Part shown: positions 2,807 through 35,132 of the stretch, one piece after another
Position numbering within the stretch: position 1 is the first letter of the stretch
Layout: every line of letters starts with the position of its first letter
NCBI RefSeq assembly: GCF_023093535.1
Contig: NZ_CP095757.1
Coordinates: 310,001 to 374,000, forward strand
Direction: 5' to 3'
From: Halovivax limisalsi
GTDB lineage: Archaea; Halobacteriota; Halobacteria; Halobacteriales; Natrialbaceae
DNA length: 64,000 nt
Made by a program: the position numbers and the translations under genes
The notes under the pieces: model-generated
What the model was told of the DNA's origin: nothing
Databases searched by the model: none
Seen by the model: only the letters and a program-made list of their open reading frames with translations

Positions 2807-3176
2807 ATGGAACGCCGAGAGTTCCTCGCTGGCGGAGGGATAGTTGCCGGGACCATCACGGTTGGCGGCCTCCTTTGGCGCCACACCCGGAGCAATCTGG
2901 CGGTTCACGTGCAAAATCTTACAGACGAGCGCAAGCGGGTCGTCCTGACCATTTCGACACTTGACGGCGGCTACGTGTTCGAGGAAACCTTCGATATCAG
3001 CGGCGGCAGTTCGCTACTTCGACGTAACGTCGCAGGCGGCGGCAGGTATACGGCGACAATTCGATTTTGGAGACCGGGAAGTCGAACACGATATGGAGCG
3101 GTTCATCTGTCACGAACCGACGATCGTGTTCGAGATCGGCGGTGGCCACACGATATCGGCCTATTCGATGTGCTGA
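2807..3176 (+). pseudogene. Small exported or membrane-anchored protein, interrupted by a frameshift
   Basis: The first frame starts MERREFLAGGGIVAGTITVG, a twin-arginine-like N-terminal hydrophobic segment, followed by a beta-rich domain (NLAVHVQNLTDERKRVVLTI). At the TTTT run 3065-3068 the original frame becomes arginine-rich nonsense. Dropping one T restores an acidic, plausible continuation (FGDREVEHDMERFICHEP) that ends at 3176 with SAYSMC. The repaired product would be about 122 residues. An AT-rich promoter region (about 2755-2790, with TTAATTTAATAG) precedes it. A sequencing error in the homopolymer is possible. Family not recognised; the domain recalls the immunoglobulin-like halves of haloarchaeal lipoproteins. 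Confidence 0.7.
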
Positions 3177-3276
3177 GCGGCGGGCGCCCGCGACGCGGCT
3201 TCGGGCGCCCGCCATCGGCCGACCCGCGCCGGCGCGACCACCAGCGGACCCAATACGCTTTTCCTGATTCCTGCGT

Positions 3277-5364
3277 ATGTCCGGGCAGATGGAACTCGAG
3301 TCGATCCCGGGCGTCGGCGCGAAGACGGCCGAAGCGCTGGCCGAGCTCGAGGATCCCGAGGCGGCGCTCGCGGCGGGCGACGTGGCCGAGCTCGCGAGCG
3401 CGCCCGGCATCGAACCGGGCCGGGCCGCTCACATCGCGCGCGGCGCAATCCGGGCCGAGCACGACGATCCCGGCGGATTTTGCGCGACCGACCGGGCGCG
3501 GGAGATCTACCGCGAGTTGCTCGAGGCGGTGCAGGCTCGCGCCGTCACCGACTACGCCACCCGCCGACTCGAGACGTTCTACCCGAGTCGGCGCCGCTCG
3601 CGGATCGAGGAGGCCCGCGAGGTGACCGCGGCGGCGCTCGATCGCGACCCGAACGAGGCCGTTCGCGAGGCGCTCGACGGCGTCGAGCCGGTCGCCGAGC
3701 CCGGCGACGTCCGCGTCCGCGAGCGCTGTCTGGCGACGGTCGACGCCGAGCGCTACTCGCGGGCGCGCGAGTCGTTCCCGGAACTCTCGGTCGAACTCGT
3801 CGAGGACGCCAGGGGGCTAGCCGAACTCGCGCGGGGGTACGCGACGGTGGTCGCCCTCGACGAGCGCTTCGCGGGGGTGGACGTCGAAGGCGACGTCCGC
3901 GTTCGCCCCGACGCGTTCGACGCGCCCGTCGAGATCGTCCCCGAACGCCCGCTCGCGTTCTTCTCGCACAACCGCGATCGGCTCCGCGCCGCGATCGGAG
4001 TGCACCGCGAGAGCGACCTCGAACCGCCGTGCGACCTCGACGACCTCGAGGCGGGCCTCGAACGGCTGGAATCGGACGGGACGGTCGCCGGCGACGACGA
4101 GCTGGATCGACTCGAACGCGCGCTCGACGACCTCGACGCCGCCGTCGACGCGGCGGAGTCGCTGGCCACCGACCGGCTGAAGGAGGCGATCGCGGAGCGA
4201 GACGTCACGATCGAGGGATCCGACCTGCTCTCGCTGGTCGAGCGCGGGGCGGGGGCGGACAGCCTCCTCTCGCGCGAGCTCGGCGACGAGTACGACGCGG
4301 CGGTCGCGGCGGCCCGCGAGCGCCTGATCGCCGACCTCGACCTGGCGGACGACGAGGCCGAGCTCGCCAGACGCGCGTTCCCCGACGAGCCGACCGTCCC
4401 GGTCACGCGCGAGGACGAGGTCGTCGCCCGCCTGCGAGAGAGCCTCCGGACCGCGATGGACCGCCGGGCGAGCAAGCGAAAGCAGGAGCTCGCGAGCGAC
4501 CTCGCCGACCTGCGCGCGGACGCGGAGACGCTCGTCCGGCAGGCGCTCGAACTCGACGTCGAACTGGCCATCGCGCGCTTCGCCGCCGACTACGACTGTA
4601 CGATGCCCGAATTCGTCTGGGGCGGCGAAGCGACCGACGCGGGGGCAGAGGCGGGTGCGGACGCAGAGGGTGACGCGCCCGACGTCGACATCGAGGGCGG
4701 GCGCTCGCCGTTACTCGACGAGCCGCCGGAGCGGATCGATCCGGTCGACTACGCGATCGACGGCGTGCGCCTGCTCTCCGGGGTCAACAGCGGGGGCAAG
4801 ACCTCGACGCTCGACCTCGTCGCGAGCGTGGTCGTCCTCGCCCACATGGGCCTGCCGGTCCCCGCCGACCGGGTGCGCCTGCGTCGCTTCGACGGGCTGC
4901 ACTACCACGCGAAGACCCAGGGTACCCTCGACGCGGGCGCGTTCGAGGCGACCGTGCGCGGCTTCGCCGACCTGGCGACGGGCAACGACGGCGGGCTGGT
5001 GCTGGTCGACGAACTCGAGAGCATCACCGAACCCGGCGCGAGCGCGAAGATAATCGCCGGCATCCTGGAAGCCCTGGCCGAGCGCGACGCGACGGCCGTC
5101 TTCGTCTCCCACCTGGCCGACGAGATCCGCGAGACGGCGGGGTACGACGTCCCCGTCGACGGCATCGAGGCCGTCGGCCTCGTCGACGGCGAACTCGAGG
5201 TGAACCGCTCGCCCGTCCCGGACCACCTCGCGCGCTCGACGCCGGAGTTGATCGTCGAGAAGCTGGCCACCGAGGCCGCCGCGGGGAGTGACGGCGAAAC
5301 GGGCGCCAGCGCGGACGGCGGGGCGGATACGTTCTACGAGCGGTTGCTGACGAAGTTCGAGTGA
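3277..5364 (+). CDS. MutS-family ATPase with N-terminal helix-hairpin-helix
   Basis: A 695-residue protein. Residues about 5-55 form helix-hairpin-helix repeats (SIPGVGAKTAEAL, SAPGIEPGRAAHIA). A long Arg/Glu-rich helical middle resembles the MutS core and clamp. The C-terminal MutS ATPase has Walker A GVNSGGKTS (residues 502-510), the GLHYHAKTQGTLDAGAFEA segment and Walker B GLVLVDELESI, then FVSHLADEI. It lacks the mismatch-recognition domain of MutS1 and resembles archaeal MutS-related proteins of unclear DNA-processing function. The ATG at 3277 follows a short AT-rich patch. Its 3' end (5260-5367) is duplicated at 6092-6202 beyond a toxin-antitoxin pair. Confidence 0.88.
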   Translation: MSGQMELESIPGVGAKTAEALAELEDPEAALAAGDVAELASAPGIEPGRAAHIARGAIRAEHDDPGGFCATDRAREIYRELLEAVQARAVTDYATRRLETFYPSRRRSRIEEAREVTAAALDRDPNEAVREALDGVEPVAEPGDVRVRERCLATVDAERYSRARESFPELSVELVEDARGLAELARGYATVVALDERFAGVDVEGDVRVRPDAFDAPVEIVPERPLAFFSHNRDRLRAAIGVHRESDLEPPCDLDDLEAGLERLESDGTVAGDDELDRLERALDDLDAAVDAAESLATDRLKEAIAERDVTIEGSDLLSLVERGAGADSLLSRELGDEYDAAVAAARERLIADLDLADDEAELARRAFPDEPTVPVTREDEVVARLRESLRTAMDRRASKRKQELASDLADLRADAETLVRQALELDVELAIARFAADYDCTMPEFVWGGEATDAGAEAGADAEGDAPDVDIEGGRSPLLDEPPERIDPVDYAIDGVRLLSGVNSGGKTSTLDLVASVVVLAHMGLPVPADRVRLRRFDGLHYHAKTQGTLDAGAFEATVRGFADLATGNDGGLVLVDELESITEPGASAKIIAGILEALAERDATAVFVSHLADEIRETAGYDVPVDGIEAVGLVDGELEVNRSPVPDHLARSTPELIVEKLATEAAAGSDGETGASADGGADTFYERLLTKFE

Positions 5365-5413
5365 GAGAAAAGGGGCGGACGGATGCAGTCGCGGACCAAC
5401 GGAGGAGACCCCA

Positions 5414-5803
5414 TCACACGAGTTCAGCCGGGGAGATCGCCCCGTGTTCGCGTAATTCGGCGTCGAAAGAGACCAGCGTCGCATCGACGGCGGCCGCTGA
5501 AGCCAGAACGAGGGCGTCCATCGGATACAGAAGCGTCTCCTCCTGCAGTCGGCTCGCTTCGATTGTATCTGCCGCACTGGGGAACGTGACGTTCGTCCGC
5601 GACCGAACTCGTTGTTCAATTTGTGTAACGCGGTCTCGTTCGAACCGCTTCTTTTTCGTCAATACGGTACGCAATTCCATGAGGTTCAACACCGACGTGT
5701 ACGTCTCGTCGAGTTCGTTGAGGGCGTGAATTGCCGTCTCCGATCGATCCGTGTCGACCGTAACGGCGGCAACGAGTACGTTCGTATCGAGAAGATACGT
5801 CAT
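5414..5803 (-). CDS. PIN-domain toxin (VapC-like)
   Basis: A 129-residue PIN-domain protein, presumably an RNA-cleaving toxin. The first acidic residue is in MTYLLDTNVLVAAV, the second in the NLMELRTVL helix, and the last cluster is in YPMDALVLASAAAVDATLVSFD; together these give the Asp/Glu set that binds Mg2+ in PIN nucleases. Its ATG overlaps the stop of the upstream small gene (ATGA), the usual antitoxin-toxin coupling. It lies between the end of the MutS-like gene and a duplicate of that end, so it may be horizontally acquired cargo. Confidence 0.85.
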   Translation of the reverse strand: MTYLLDTNVLVAAVTVDTDRSETAIHALNELDETYTSVLNLMELRTVLTKKKRFERDRVTQIEQRVRSRTNVTFPSAADTIEASRLQEETLLYPMDALVLASAAAVDATLVSFDAELREHGAISPAELV

Positions 5804-5952
5804 AGCCGCTCGCGAACGTCGCGGACGGCATCGACCGAATCGAGTTCGACGTCCACCGCAAGTTCTGCGAGCGCGTCACCGAGCGGCGTGTCTGGATCGT
5901 CCGCTGGATCCTCGACCATGAACTCGGCGAAGTCTTCGGTCGTGAGACTCAT
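5800..5952 (-). CDS. Short antitoxin partner of the PIN toxin
   Basis: This 50-residue frame is short but well supported. It starts at an ATG (5952), is strongly acidic (MSLTTEDFAEFMVEDPADDP at the start), and its stop overlaps the toxin start by four bases. It shows no obvious ribbon-helix-helix or AbrB domain. The sequence looks like a toxin-binding tail (pattern ELAVDVELDSVDAVRDVRERL), so it may neutralise the nuclease by direct binding. A T-rich stretch at about 5972-5982 could be the TATA box, and a TGAC-N6-GTCA dyad lies between it and the ATG. Family not recognised. Confidence 0.75.
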   Translation of the reverse strand: MSLTTEDFAEFMVEDPADDPDTPLGDALAELAVDVELDSVDAVRDVRERL

Positions 5953-5968: not shown

Positions 5969-6091
5969 GCAGTTTGTAAAAAACTTGCTGGTGAGTACGC
6001 CGCACCGTGGCTCGGACGATGGCTGTCTCGTCAACGCGACCGTCGAATGGGGACCGCCAGCATCGCATCCCTCCCGGACCCGGTCGGCGGG

Positions 6092-6202
6092 AAACTGGCC
6101 ACTGAGGCCGCAGCGAGGAGCGACGGATGGGCGGGCGACGCTAGCGCGGACGGCGGGGCGGATACGTTCTACGAGCGGTTGCTGGCGAAGTTCGAGTGAG
6201 GG
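6092..6202 (+). repeat. Duplicated 3' end of the MutS-like gene
   Basis: This stretch repeats the last 35 codons, stop and a few following bases of the gene ending at 5364 (first copy 5260-5367). The reading frame is preserved: KLATEAAARSDGWAGDASAD followed by GGADTFYERLLAKFE and a stop, against KLATEAAAGSDGETGASADG with the same ending in the gene. The final 55 bases are nearly identical. The upstream frame here has no recognisable MutS sequence, so it is a free-standing gene end. The interval 5368-6091 between the copies holds the PIN toxin-antitoxin pair. Confidence 0.85.
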
Positions 6203-6542: not shown

Positions 6543-6850
6543 GGATCTACTCCAGAAACCGCGCGCCCACGTCACCCTCGGGAATCTCGCAGCGATCCTT
6601 CTTGCCGAAGACGCGATACCGATTGTTCGCCATGAGGTCGTAGACGGCGTCCCGGACGACGCGCGGCACGTAGCGAAACGGCGAGAGCAGGCGGTAGACG
6701 CCGCCGAGGATGGTGGCGATGCGGATGACGGCGCCGGACTTGACGTAGACCGACTCCCCCTTGACGAGGACGATCGAGTCGAACTCCTCGGTGGGCAGAC
6801 CGTGTTCGTCGAGCAACTCCTGGCCAACCTCGGACTGCAGCGAAGCGAGG
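6543..6850 (-). pseudogene. 5'-truncated, diverged copy of the DCC-family gene
   Basis: The minus strand encodes the C-terminal two thirds of the protein encoded intact at 9104-9520. Shared pieces are EEFDSIVLVKGESVYVKSGA, IRIATILGGVYRLLSP and GKKDRCEIPEGDVGARFLE at the stop (6547). Similarity breaks abruptly at about 6850, where AT-rich DNA begins, so the CxxC-containing N-terminus is missing. By eye the two copies differ at roughly one base in fifteen, so the duplication is not very recent. It lies downstream of the intact gene's 3' end, with a 2.25 kb insert between. Confidence 0.88.
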
Positions 6851-7044
6851 TTTAATTGCTCCTTGATACCCCGAGAGGGCCTATTCTAAGAACTGACAAT
6901 TCGTCCAAATAAACTAATATACCTGGTAGCGTAACTCGCATTCCCTAATAAATATCATATATTTTTACTTGATATAGATTTAATACATTTGTGGATGATC
7001 TGATGACGTCGCTTTTGACAATATCCACACGCGAATTAGCGTTG

Positions 7045-8464
7045 ATGGGGCGGCGTCGGTTTATTGAAACACTCACCGCGATAGGCCTCTCCGCGAGTAC
7101 AGTTTCTGGAATGACAAAAGAAAAATTGTTGGATTTGACTGATGACCCAACAGATAGGGTCCCCAGAGCAAAAGCAATTCGGCTGAAAAATCCCGATAAA
7201 TGGGAAGCCCCCCCATTCCCAGAAAGAGAGCCTCAATTTGAGACGGAGTATACGACCATCCCTCGAGACAAATGGGTTCGAATGGAGTCAGCATACGATG
7301 CATCCGAACGGATTAAGAGAAAAGTAAGTTCACAATTTGATTCAAATTCAAAGATAGATGCTGTTACTACCGGAGTAACACGAGAGGTGTTCGGTCAACA
7401 CGAGCAATATGCCGTGAGAGTCGGGCTTAAAAGGGTTCACGGCACACAGAGTGGGATATATAGCAACCGTGAAAGAGACGAGCTAGTTGATTCATTGAAG
7501 GAGATTGCCAGACGAAGCATATGGAGATGCAGCAAAGGAGACAGATCCGTCGGTTGTGAGCGCCAGTGAGATATCAAACTCACCAGCAACAGCTGTCGAA
7601 GACATTCCAATACAATATACGATTGGTACCGAAACAGAGTCAGCTGCGTGTGGGAACAATGGTAGTGATCGATATTACGATCGTCCTTATAGAATTTCTG
7701 AAGTAAGAGATTCTGAGGTTCCATACGGTATCCGAGCAGGAGCATATCGGCCGAAAGAGTGGCCCAATGAAGATGAATATGATTGGTCGGTGGGCACCTT
7801 AGGACCACGCGTTTGGGACCACGAAGATATGGAATATCGATTCACAATTACAGCTCACACCACACTCCAGTACGATGGAGGAAAACCGGACTGGAAGAAT
7901 CCTGATTCACACTCCGATGATGCAATCGGAAGAGCAATCGCTCAACCGGGTGGTTCATCGCACCAAATTGGTACCGTTTCACGGGGTAGCTACCATTACA
8001 CCGACGAGGATTCACCAACATATTTAGATGTAGCAGTAATCAAACCCGACGAGGATCTTTATCCAATAAGATCCGTCGGCGAACAGAATGGGCAAGGTGT
8101 AGATGAAGCGTTCGACATCGGCCATGGCACATATTCAGTCGATCAGCTCAAGGATCTAGAAGCTGGGACGGACCTTATTCGGCAGGGTCAACGTACTGGT
8201 CGATGTGGAACACCCATTGATGAAATCAATAGTTCTGGGAGTCGGTTCAGGCTGGAACACGATGGAGATTACCACGACACGAACGGGGACTCAGGATCCC
8301 CATACTTCGTGGAAGATGACGGAGAGTTCCTCGTGGCAGGTATGCACCGTGCTTCCACACAGACACAGATATACCATCCGGACTTTGGTTGGATCGATGT
8401 TATGGTTGGTATAGGAATGGCTATGGAATGGGTTGAGAATAACATGAATATCAGTTCGATGTGA
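7045..8464 (+). pseudogene. Trypsin-like (S1) serine peptidase, split by a frameshift
   Basis: The first part starts MGRRRFIETLTAIGLSASTV, the twin-arginine-like N-terminus known from haloarchaeal S1-family peptidases, and runs to about 7506. The peptidase domain is in the +1 frame to 8464. It shows a candidate catalytic His in RFTITAHTTL, Asp in TYLDVAVIKPD and Ser in NGDSGSPYF. Removing G7507 joins the frames as LVDSLKEI-PDEAYGDAAKE. All catalytic residues survive, so the break may be recent or a sequencing error. The gene is visibly AT-rich compared with its neighbours, and an AT-rich block at 6880-6990 precedes it, indicating foreign origin. The product would be exported and cleave extracellular protein. 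Confidence 0.78.
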
Positions 8465-8469
8465 TTAGA

Positions 8470-9054
8470 ATGAACGATCTCACTCGCCGCAGCGTGATCA
8501 CGGTCGCACTCGTTACAACAGCTGGCTGTATTGACGGCGATTCGGCCGTGTCGGACGAGCCTGGCGATGAGTCCGGTACGAGCGACGAAGATCCAACGAA
8601 AGGGGAGAACGAGACAGTAAATGGGGACGGGGATCCGAGCGAAGGTCCATCGACGTACATGGATCTCGTGTTCTACCTGGTCGACCCTAACACGGCCGAC
8701 GATGGGGCATGTTACTCCATCGACGACGATCACTTTGCGGGCGTCAAACTGTTCGAAGAAGGGTTCGACGATCTTCGGAGTAATCCGCCGTCGACGTGGG
8801 TCGAAGGAGCCGAGCCCGGAACGGAACGGATTGGAGGAACAGTCGGGGCTGACACGCCGGCTGGATCGGAAGCGGCTACCGTCTATCGGTCAGTGTTCGA
8901 GGATACAGCGGGTGTTTCCGACGGCGTTCCCGACAGCTATCTGCGGGAAGCGGCGGCGGCGAGTGACGCATCTCTGTCGAGCGAGACGGTTCCCTGTGTC
9001 GAGTACGACGGGAACGTCATCGCCCTACTCCTCCGAATCGAGCAAGAGAACTGA
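8470..9054 (+). CDS. Tat-exported lipoprotein of unknown function
   Basis: The N-terminus MNDLTRRSVITVALVTTAGC has a twin Arg, a hydrophobic stretch and a lipobox with Cys20 as the lipid attachment site. It is followed by an acidic Asp/Glu/Ser/Thr linker and a compact domain with two Cys (DDGACYSIDDD and ETVPCVEYDG) that may form a disulfide. The ATG at 8470 gives the cleaner signal; a GTG at 8461 would overlap the peptidase stop. It follows the S1 peptidase directly and may be its operon partner. The domain, including the pattern GVPDSYLREAAAASDASL, is not recognised. Confidence 0.8.
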   Translation: MNDLTRRSVITVALVTTAGCIDGDSAVSDEPGDESGTSDEDPTKGENETVNGDGDPSEGPSTYMDLVFYLVDPNTADDGACYSIDDDHFAGVKLFEEGFDDLRSNPPSTWVEGAEPGTERIGGTVGADTPAGSEAATVYRSVFEDTAGVSDGVPDSYLREAAAASDASLSSETVPCVEYDGNVIALLLRIEQEN

Positions 9055-9103
9055 TCGAGCAATCCGTCGATTCCGCTCATAGTCAGACGAGTCTGTCATA
9101 GAC

Positions 9104-9520
9104 TTACTCCAGAAACCGCGCGCCGACGTCGCCCTCGGGAATCTCGCAGCGATCCTTCTTGCCGAAGACGCGATAGCGATTGGTCGCAACGAGGTCGTAG
9201 ACGGCGTCTCGGACGACGCGCGGCACGTACCGAGTGGGCGAGAGCAGGCGGTAGACCCCGCCGAGAATCGTGGCGATACGGATGACCGCGCCGGACTTGA
9301 CGTAGACCGACTCCCCCTCGACGAGGACGATCGAGTCGAACTCCTCGGTGGGCAGACCGTGTTCTTCGAGCAACTCCTGGCCCACCTCGGACTGCAGCGA
9401 GGCGAAGTAGAACCGCTCCTCGTCGTCCCGCGGCGCGATGAACTGCACGAACCCGTTACAGAGGTTGCAGACACCGTCGAAGAGGACGATCGGCGCGTCC
9501 TCGGGAACCGACGACTCCAT
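9104..9520 (-). CDS. DCC-family thiol-disulfide oxidoreductase-like protein (DUF393)
   Basis: A 138-residue protein with the family motif APIVLFDGVCNLCNGFVQFI at residues 8-27, whose DGVCxLC gives DCC proteins their name, followed by the conserved C-terminal RVFGKKDRCEIPEGDVGARF. DCC proteins are predicted thioredoxin-fold oxidoreductases. The ATG at 9520 is the only start that leaves a clean N-terminus; the longer upstream frame is arginine-rich. A diverged fragment of the same gene lies at 6543-6850. DCC genes often neighbour HTTM proteins, and an HTTM gene does lie 0.7 kb away at 10242. Confidence 0.88.
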   Translation of the reverse strand: MESSVPEDAPIVLFDGVCNLCNGFVQFIAPRDDEERFYFASLQSEVGQELLEEHGLPTEEFDSIVLVEGESVYVKSGAVIRIATILGGVYRLLSPTRYVPRVVRDAVYDLVATNRYRVFGKKDRCEIPEGDVGARFLE

Positions 9521-9664
9521 GCGAGAGCGTTGGCGTGGCCGACAGTAAGGCGTTCCGGTCGGTCGGAGGGGAATTCGACAGAGACGGATATCCGACGGAC
9601 AACTCGCCGGTTCGATTGCGATTCGAGGCGGTTCCACGACCGTTCTATTCATCCATCTCTGGTA

Positions 9665-9673
9665 TTTATATAA
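9665..9673 (+). promoter_or_regulatory. TATA box of the first RNA/zinc-ribbon cassette
   Basis: TTTATATAA is centred 28 nt upstream of the first base of the P1 helix at 9697, the normal archaeal spacing from TATA box to transcription start. The second cassette has TATATATAAT at nearly the same distance. Confidence 0.7.
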
Positions 9674-9696
9674 TCGATACTAATGATTGGTTGAAC

Positions 9697-9847
9697 GGAA
9701 GCCGCGCTCCGCGTTGTCGTGGGGACAGTCACCGAGAATGTCCCGGGTGTTAGGACCACCCGAGACGTGGCTTCCAAATCCGAGGAGGATTTGTCTGCCA
9801 TGATTGCGAACACACTACCGAGACAAAAAGGTCTCGCACGCCTGCGG
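9697..9847 (+). ncRNA. Structured leader RNA, copy A
   Basis: The transcript can fold into a three-way junction. P1 pairs 9697-9706 (GGAAGCCGCG) with 9766-9775; P2 pairs GGGACA (9722-9727) with TGTCCC (9739-9744); P3 pairs GGGTG (9745-9749) with CACCC (9757-9761). P4 follows (AAATCC 9776-9781 with GGATTT 9787-9792), then P5 (GAGAC 9820-9824 with GTCTC 9831-9835) and a short P6. Copy B at 20169-20309 keeps every helix while changing bases in P1, P2 and P4. P4 holds a Shine-Dalgarno-like GAGGAGG (9782-9788) 11 nt before the leader ORF. It matches no riboswitch class I know. Confidence 0.8.
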
Positions 9848-9934
9848 TACAGTCAGCGAATGCTCCGTCCCGATTTCGGTTCGGTTTCGAAAGCGAGCCG
9901 CGAGTCCGTCGCCGGGTCGCTGGAGGGCGCCTGA
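9800..9934 (+). CDS. Leader ORF upstream of zinc-ribbon gene, copy A
   Basis: A 44-residue frame starting MIANTLPRQKGLARLR. The ATG follows GAGGAGG by 11 nt, and its stop overlaps the next ATG as TGATG, so translation of the two would be coupled. Copy B (20262-20414) encodes MLRNTPLRQKGLARLR at the same place and likewise overlaps the zinc-ribbon start (ATGA). After these 16 residues the two peptides diverge completely. The shared nine codons AGA to CGG have no synonymous change, so RNA constraint or a recent common origin may explain the conservation instead of peptide function. It could be a regulatory leader peptide. Confidence 0.5.
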   Translation: MIANTLPRQKGLARLRYSQRMLRPDFGSVSKASRESVAGSLEGA

Positions 9935-34022: not shown

Positions 34023-35132
34023 ATGACCGAAATCACGCCCGCTGAACTCGGCGACCGGATCGGGACCGACGAGGCCCCGCTCGTCGTCGACGTTCGCTCA
34101 CAGGAGGAGTACGCTGACTGGCACGTCCCGGGAAGTATCAACGTCGACGTCTACGACGAGCTGCAATCGGACCCGGCCGCGGCGGCCGAATCGCTCGCGG
34201 ACCTGCCCGAAGACCGAGAGATCGTCACCGTCTGCGCCGCCGGAGTCGTCGCGGAGACGGCGGCGGACGCCCTTCGAGACAGGGGCTACGACGCGAAGAC
34301 GCTCGTCGACGGGATGAACGGCTGGAGCCGCGTGCACCGGAGCGCCGTCGTCAGGACCGATCTCGACGGCACGCTCGTCCAGGTCGCCCGTCCGGGGAAG
34401 GGCTGTCTCTCGCACGTGCTCGTGGCCGACGGCGAGGCCGCGGTCTTCGACCCCTCGCACTACCTCGCGGCGTACGACGCGATCCTCGAGGCGTACGACG
34501 CCGATCTCGTCGGCGTCTTCGACACGCACGCCCACGCGGATCACGTCTCCGGCGGGGCCGACCTCGCCGCGCGCCACGACGTCCCGTACTACCTGCACCC
34601 CGACGACGCGCTCGCGATCGACGTTGCCCCGATCGCTGACGGTGAGACGATCACGGTCGGGACGGTCGACATCGACGTGATCCACACGCCCGGCCACAGC
34701 GAGGGCAGCGTCACCTTCGCCCTCGCGGGCGAGGCGCTCCTGACGGGCGATACGCTCTTTCACGAGAGCGTCGGTCGCGTCGAGCTGGGTGTCGAGGCCG
34801 GCATCGAGGACTCGGACGTCGAGTCGAACGCGGCAACGCTCTACGAGAGCCTCCAGCGCATCATCGAACGACCGGACGACGCGGTCGTCCTCCCGGCGCA
34901 CGATCCCGGCTCGCCGGAACCGCCGGTGAGCGCGACGCTCGACGAGGTTCGGGCGCGAAATCCGGATCTCGATCGCGACCGGGCGGCGTTCGTCCGGACG
35001 CTCGCGGCGGATGTCCCGGACCACCCGCCGAACTTCGAACGCGTCAAGCGAGCGAACGTCGGCCGGGCGGACGTTCCGGACGACGAACTGTCCGAGCTCG
35101 AACTGGGGCCAAACCGCTGTGCCGCGGAGTGA
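34023..35132 (+). CDS. Rhodanese and beta-lactamase-fold fusion (persulfide metabolism type)
   Basis: A 369-residue fusion. Residues 1-105 form a rhodanese domain (APLVVDVRSQEEYADWHVPG and active-site loop VCAAGVVAE). Residues 110-300 form a metallo-beta-lactamase domain with THAHADHVSGG (H168, H170, D172, H173), the later HTPGHSEGSV and LLTGDTLFHESVGRVEL, giving a metal site like that of persulfide dioxygenase or glyoxalase II. The C-terminal 60 residues are helical. The fusion order is reversed compared with many persulfide dioxygenases. It starts an operon with the MFS gene three bases after its stop. Confidence 0.88.
   Translation: MTEITPAELGDRIGTDEAPLVVDVRSQEEYADWHVPGSINVDVYDELQSDPAAAAESLADLPEDREIVTVCAAGVVAETAADALRDRGYDAKTLVDGMNGWSRVHRSAVVRTDLDGTLVQVARPGKGCLSHVLVADGEAAVFDPSHYLAAYDAILEAYDADLVGVFDTHAHADHVSGGADLAARHDVPYYLHPDDALAIDVAPIADGETITVGTVDIDVIHTPGHSEGSVTFALAGEALLTGDTLFHESVGRVELGVEAGIEDSDVESNAATLYESLQRIIERPDDAVVLPAHDPGSPEPPVSATLDEVRARNPDLDRDRAAFVRTLAADVPDHPPNFERVKRANVGRADVPDDELSELELGPNRCAAE

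Follow-up and report, generated by a model that had tools for sequence, protein, structure and literature searches.

Within a 64,000-nucleotide stretch of the Halovivax limisalsi genome (contig NZ_CP095757.1, positions 310,001 to 374,000; hereafter the window), two genes, one encoding a DCC1-like protein and the other a MutS-like protein, have 3′ ends that occur twice. The same filled structure is observed at both: the gene is complete, a small module follows its stop codon, and a 5′-truncated second copy of the gene end lies beyond the module. We propose, with a probability of roughly 0.6, that such modules gain entry through one-sided homologous recombination at the 3′ ends of genes. An earlier note on this DNA had suspected a common mechanism that duplicates gene ends around cargo, and the pattern, which recurs at many genes and in other genera, bears this out.

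At the DCC gene, the last 300 nt recur as a direct repeat (D2) of 93% identity, 2557 nt from copy to copy, and both copies match the Pfam DCC1-like family, in agreement with the duplication described in the earlier note. Because mismatched flanks of unrelated loci score at most 43.7 bits whereas this repeat scores 458 bits, a chance origin is excluded. Enclosed between the copies are a frameshifted gene for a secreted serine protease and a lipoprotein gene. The AT-rich character that the note gave to the peptidase half of the insert is confirmed by GC fractions of 0.48 across the protease gene and 0.59 across the lipoprotein gene, against ≈0.70 in genes nearby; the peptidase gene itself, which the note had listed as an S1 peptidase, is split by the frameshift. 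The matching layout claimed for the MutS-like gene is likewise present. Its last 114 nt are repeated at 85% identity, with a core of 97% (D14; 5304–5365 versus 6139–6200), and between the copies lies a VapBC-type pair that had been overlooked, consisting of a toxin whose domain falls in the known PIN family and a small overlapping frame.

The synteny comparison called for in the earlier note, made with four sister species (G001 to G004), revealed both a rearrangement and empty sites. Matches to the DCC gene number two in H. limisalsi, both in the window, and one in each sister species. The short copy is therefore no separate paralogue, and its reading as an independent paralogue with a home elsewhere is ruled out. 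In all four sister species the DCC and MutS-like genes face each other 30–58 kb apart, and the block between them, its ends conserved and in the same order, sits at 217–268 kb in H. limisalsi, the breakpoints of the rearrangement being at both gene ends. The adjacency of the two genes in the window is thus secondary, and the local insertion hot spot that the note had read from two neighboring events is not supported. A decayed native end of the MutS-like gene, matching the final 154 nt of the gene at 72.5 bits, is still found beside its old neighbor at 268.4 kb in H. limisalsi, and so at least two such events have taken place at this gene. Separately, a small protein starting MERREFLAGGG (window 2807–3625, upstream of the MutS-like gene) resembles by eye an extra gene at the DCC 3′ end in G004 (L057:10839–11252).

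Comparison of filled with empty sites identifies which of the two gene ends is the old one. In G003, a VapBC-type pair stands behind the MutS-like gene, next comes a second, decayed gene end, and then the native downstream sequence, whereas in G004 the native flank comes directly after the MutS-like stop with no module. The ahcY gene behaves in the same way: in H. limisalsi and G001, HicA and HicB come after it, then a truncated ahcY end and the native neighbor, and in G003 and G004 the native neighbor comes directly after ahcY without the HicAB module. The target repeat is present once at each of these empty sites. Because the native flank follows the gene directly where the site is empty, the native gene end at both ahcY/HicAB and MutS-like/VapBC is the truncated copy, and the new end is the one with which the cargo arrived. 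This identity of the truncated copy, where an empty site can be compared, and the predominance of toxin-antitoxin modules among the cargo had escaped the earlier note. The DCC gene is single, with no cargo behind it, in G001 and G003, and its truncated copy in the window is likely the old gene end, as at the MutS-like gene and ahcY. For ahcY and for a radical-SAM (wyosine-type) gene at two loci (L228 and L233), the two copies are 87–93% alike within a genome versus 72–82% across genomes, which points to separate insertions or gene conversion.

The search for duplicated gene 3′ ends around cargo elsewhere, which the note had also proposed, covered 1.46 Mb in three genomes (570 kb of H. limisalsi, 492 kb of G003, and 400 kb of G001). 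Paralogue arrays were removed by eye (H. limisalsi 87–113, 273–281, and 550–570 kb; G003 456–463 kb; and, in a fourth genome, G020 31–36 and 141–146 kb). The scan was run in two passes; the DCC gene was found in the first and is absent from the list of the second through its coverage filter. Seven gene 3′-end copies lie beyond cargo, all on the same strand and downstream; three were known beforehand (the DCC and MutS-like genes of H. limisalsi and the MutS-like gene of G003) and four are new. Toxin-antitoxin modules make up the cargo in five of the seven and pairs of a secreted protein and a lipoprotein in the other two. The combinations are ahcY with HicAB, an ArsP_2 permease gene with a DUF433 gene and pieces of a second gene, the two MutS-like genes with VapBC, the H. 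limisalsi DCC gene with the protease and lipoprotein, a thiamine pyrophosphate enzyme gene (G003) with a 327-aa secreted protein and a 166-aa lipoprotein, and a methyltransferase gene (G001) with a ParE-type pair. After removal of paralogues, the scan of the 1.46 Mb showed neither an upstream gene-end copy nor a non-paralogous 3′-end copy without cargo between the copies. The 5′-end copies encountered were one of 43 nt at 232582, one in a repeat array at 123324 (both H. limisalsi), and those among paralogues at G003 456–463 kb; in G020 they were one of 33 nt on the opposite strand at 34337 and one inside an array at 146598. The G020 stretch (1.4–1.8 Mb), picked with the L227 site already known and kept outside the 1.46-Mb count, contains a single array in which zinc-ribbon gene ends occur together with several toxin modules. 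Among 59 bacterial loci (658 kb), a single non-paralogous 3′-end case was found, with repeated copies in L099; the bacterial scan used a longest-open-reading-frame gene caller, unlike the haloarchaeal one, and the rates are not strictly comparable.

A second approach started from the toxin families. We compared the 1.5 kb to the left with the 1.5 kb to the right of each family match, taking HicA, DUF433, and ParE loci from searches of 41 genomes of the order and PIN loci from five genomes of the genus; of 27 ParE loci, 26 were long enough to use. Direct repeats of at least 55 bits flank 3/30 HicA, 9/30 DUF433, 7/30 PIN, and 4/26 ParE loci (23/116 in total), a line that was chosen after the scores were seen and that leaves L209 (34.6), L389 (42.8), and others below it uncounted. 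Usp loci gave 0/30. Mismatched flank pairs reached the line in 0/150 (HicA), 0/150 (DUF433), 2/150 (PIN), 2/130 (ParE), and 0/150 (Usp) comparisons, and the four exceptions among these 730 pairs are pairs of evidently related loci. The 23 repeat loci are not all independent sites, as L227 with L250, L349 with L391, and L351 with L360 and L370 form three arrays. When the 23 repeats were sorted, 13 included the stop codon of an adjacent open reading frame, two (L229 and L402) included a structured RNA-like gene, and eight were unclear or further array members. Among the cases examined, the repeats vary in length from 41 to 447 nt. The window itself also contains a strongly structured RNA-like element (9698–9774, ≈9650–9860 with flanks; a 160-nt fold at −62 kcal/mol). 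It occurs twice more in L229 and by eye looks the same as an element in the 447-nt repeat of L402, being duplicated around the toxin module at both loci; no Rfam match was found for it.

The targets differ from one another, and the modules have no ends in common. Similar DUF433/DUF5615 modules stand behind different genes (L227 versus L228 and L233), and their similarity is limited to the operon (1495–2039). Since the likeness of cargo behind different targets does not extend past the operon, there are no shared element ends, and no fixed attachment core common to the insertions was found. One target can receive cargo that differs between genera: behind the 3′ end that encodes ...IELNKVEQRENR lies a PIN toxin in H. 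limisalsi (L359) and a ParDE pair in G008 (L388). In G001 and G020, arrays stand at zinc-ribbon genes, an assignment made by eye. Two toxin-antitoxin islands (G001 C1 1449046–1458230, with L351, L360, and L370; G020 C1 1546.7–1551.8 kb, L331) carry repeated small zinc-ribbon gene ends between unrelated modules, as if they had been built by repeated insertion.

A single route would best account for these structures. Small self-maintaining two-gene modules, either toxin-antitoxin pairs or a secreted protein with a lipoprotein, would enter haloarchaeal chromosomes at gene 3′ ends on DNA that carries the end of the same gene together with the module. This end would recombine with the resident gene by homologous recombination through the host RadA, and the far side of the incoming DNA would be joined illegitimately inside the old gene end; alternatively, an equivalent circle would integrate by one crossover. 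The newcomer would supply a complete gene end and the target gene would survive, which would explain why 3′ ends are the sites seen. The resulting direct repeats would then permit gene conversion and, presumably through a circle, clean loop-out; selection against its loss would come from the module's addictive character. In the window, the DCC gene would have been hit by the protease/lipoprotein pair and the MutS-like gene, at least twice, by VapBC, a later rearrangement having joined both sites.

The alternative that we take most seriously, while still considering it unlikely, is a long target duplication by a staggered double-strand break, in which the module is joined at overhangs of 40–450 nt, fill-in duplicates the target, and selection spares only breaks across a gene end or a small RNA gene. 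It would yield an identical final structure, with variable repeat length and no shared ends among modules, and it sits well with the near-identical copies of recent-looking cases (98% at L396; 96% over 447 nt at L402) and with the duplication of a whole RNA-like gene in L229 and L402. Nothing in the repeats tells one-sided recombination from such a break. The DCC copies, however, differ at 3 first, 2 second, and 16 third codon positions, and the truncated copy has neither a stop nor a frameshift, a pattern that appears to fit two functional alleles better than one decaying copy, on small numbers. An origin of the duplications as by-products of the rearrangement that joined both loci, by an inversion-type duplication with cargo arriving later, would place the breakpoints at both gene ends, as seen; we hold it to be very improbable, because the MutS-like duplication with VapBC is present in G003 without the rearrangement, the same pattern occurs at many unrearranged genes, and the repeats lie near each other in direct orientation rather than far apart in inverted orientation. 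If the gene end had first been partly duplicated in tandem at its place and the cargo inserted afterward between the copies, direct repeats with a complete gene upstream would also result, but the complete lack of non-paralogous cargo-free 3′-end copies in the scan speaks against this and the mostly toxin cargo would go unexplained, and we give this sequence of events scarcely any weight. Equally little credit goes to an integrative element that recombined site-specifically at an attachment site within each gene 3′ end and of which the cargo alone is left. Some integrative elements enter the 3′ ends of genes or tRNA genes and restore them, and the complete gene on one side with a 3′ fragment on the other is indeed the shared feature. 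Here, in contrast, the targets are many and unrelated, with no common core or ends, the cargo spans only ≈0.7–2.3 kb in the scanned cases, and reading of the seven scanned cargos, made without a recombinase profile search, revealed no recombinase-like open reading frame.

Several observations weigh against one-sided recombination, or at least do not favor it. A further 21 haloarchaeal loci around DCC relatives, 243 kb in all, yielded no 3′-end copy, and 93 of the 116 toxin loci have no repeat within 1.5 kb, which implies that most insertions are old or of other origin. None of G001 to G004 has the DCC insertion of the window, and G002 and G004 carry extra DNA at the DCC 3′ end in which no gene-end copy was found. 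The flank of the truncated DCC copy is not significantly similar to the spacers of the sister species (shuffle p 0.06–0.74), and its native flank is not established. When the DCC differences were polarized with G001, G003, and G004 as outgroups, G002 being left out because its row was misframed by one codon, the outcome was ambiguous: nine are derived in the intact copy, seven in the truncated copy (five of these seven at third positions), and four are unpolarized. Nor was a recombination event observed.

Among known systems, the closest is the insertion of restriction-modification systems, which takes place with long, variable target duplication (≈100 bp) and is tied to rearrangements (Nobusato et al. 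2000; Furuta et al. 2010, via PMC3874152 and PMC3031569). As far as those accounts describe it, the two share an addiction-type module, the lack of a transposase, long variable direct target repeats, and an association with rearrangements. They differ in that the haloarchaeal cargo consists of PIN/VapC, HicAB, DUF433-DUF5615, ParE-type, and secreted/lipoprotein pairs, none of them restriction-modification systems, and in that the duplicated part here is typically a gene 3′ end or an RNA-like gene, with the module following the stop codon. In Vibrio cholerae, the effector-immunity arrays of type VI secretion clusters have been suggested to arise by homology-facilitated illegitimate recombination (PMC5361080, PMC2884548). 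As described there, one homologous anchor is combined with one illegitimate joint, the old sequence is kept behind the newcomer, and arrays arise by repetition, as we propose here; in V. cholerae, however, upstream sequence held in common acts as the anchor and immunity genes accumulate, whereas here the anchor would be the target gene and the old 3′ end is left behind. In searches of open-access listings, which lack most subscription papers, we found no report of gene-end duplication around toxin-antitoxin modules or in haloarchaea. The mode of insertion is thus best placed as a variant of the long-target-duplication insertion known for restriction-modification systems. The cargo proteins that match the Pfam families PIN/VapC, HicA, ParE, and DUF433-DUF5615 are themselves nothing new, and the interest lies only in how they are inserted.

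The protease of the window has relatives in 3 of 61 genomes, H. limisalsi included. Because the three other copies (L375, L376, and L377) are uninterrupted reading frames of 471, 478, and 454 aa, the window copy is to be read as a frameshifted gene, unless the sequence is in error. H118, D175, and S263 are invariant in all four sequences and occur in S1 order with a GDSG motif; we take them, by motif, to be the S1 catalytic triad. One relative matches Pfam Trypsin below its cut-off (E 0.008), and a search of solved structures in the PDB with the protease alignment gave weak matches only, to chymotrypsin-fold proteases. A lipoprotein-like gene directly follows the protease gene at all four loci, and the window lipoprotein has no match at E 1e-3 to the lipoproteins of the other three. 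A conserved secreted enzyme with a fast-changing membrane-bound partner, found on the same route as the toxin modules, suggests a putative secreted toxin with its immunity partner.

Table 1 Target genes, duplicated gene ends, and cargo in the window
Feature	Position	Strand	Evidence
DCC1-like target gene, complete	9104..9520	-	Pfam DCC1-like 1.6e-31 over 9107-9520; one orthologue in each of G001-G004
DCC gene 3′ end, gene-attached copy	9105..9404	-	Repeat D2
DCC gene 3′ end, second copy, 5′-truncated	6547..6850	-	Repeat D2, aligned 6548-6847, 93%; Pfam DCC1-like 3.5e-14 over 6550-6816
MutS-like target gene, complete	3277..5364	+	HHH domain, MutS domain V; nearest NCBIfam models KamC and MutS2, below their cut-offs
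MutS-like gene 3′ end, gene-attached copy	5252..5365	+	Repeat with 6084-6200
MutS-like gene 3′ end, second copy	6084..6200	+	Repeat with 5252-5365
PIN-domain (VapC-type) toxin gene, cargo	5414..5803	-	Pfam PIN 4.4e-17 in 5417-5803; conserved in G003
Presumed antitoxin, small frame (50 aa) overlapping toxin gene start	5800..5952	-	Conserved in G003; no family match
Serine protease gene, twin-arginine translocation (Tat)-type secreted, first half (frameshifted), cargo	6991..7569	+	blastp to intact relatives L375, L376, L377
Protease gene, second half, cargo	7505..8464	+	Catalytic His118, Asp175, Ser263 invariant
Lipoprotein gene, cargo	8461..9054	+	4-nt overlap with protease stop

Three further arrays were noted. 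An array of large genes in H. limisalsi (87845–112592; L158 and L159), whose last 170–300 nt are ≈79–93% alike, suggests shared C-terminal domains. At 123324–124244 (L160) of the same genome, a repeat array resembling CRISPR (clustered regularly interspaced short palindromic repeats) can be read as open reading frames with a recurring peptide. Consecutive genes with similar beginnings or ends at G003 456700–462200 (L192) form an expanding tandem family.

These data speak to an open question, namely the means by which toxin-antitoxin modules arrive at chromosomal positions when no mobile element is visible. Gene-end duplications provide a readable footprint of entry: sister species show empty sites, old and new ends can be seen next to each other, and unrelated modules reuse the same targets. 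Tentatively, and with the odds in our judgment against it, haloarchaeal toxin-antitoxin and secreted-toxin/immunity modules might be integrase-free mobile cassettes that use a gene 3′ end as a private attachment site and RadA as integrase, are excised between the repeats as a circle bearing the gene end, and pay for their maintenance by addiction; the protease and lipoprotein would then be a new extracellular toxin-immunity addiction module, recognized by the common route. The footprint makes the route of entry testable through RadA dependence, circle formation, and rate of loss, and searching for it could uncover addiction-like modules not yet known, the pair of secreted protease and variable lipoprotein being one example.

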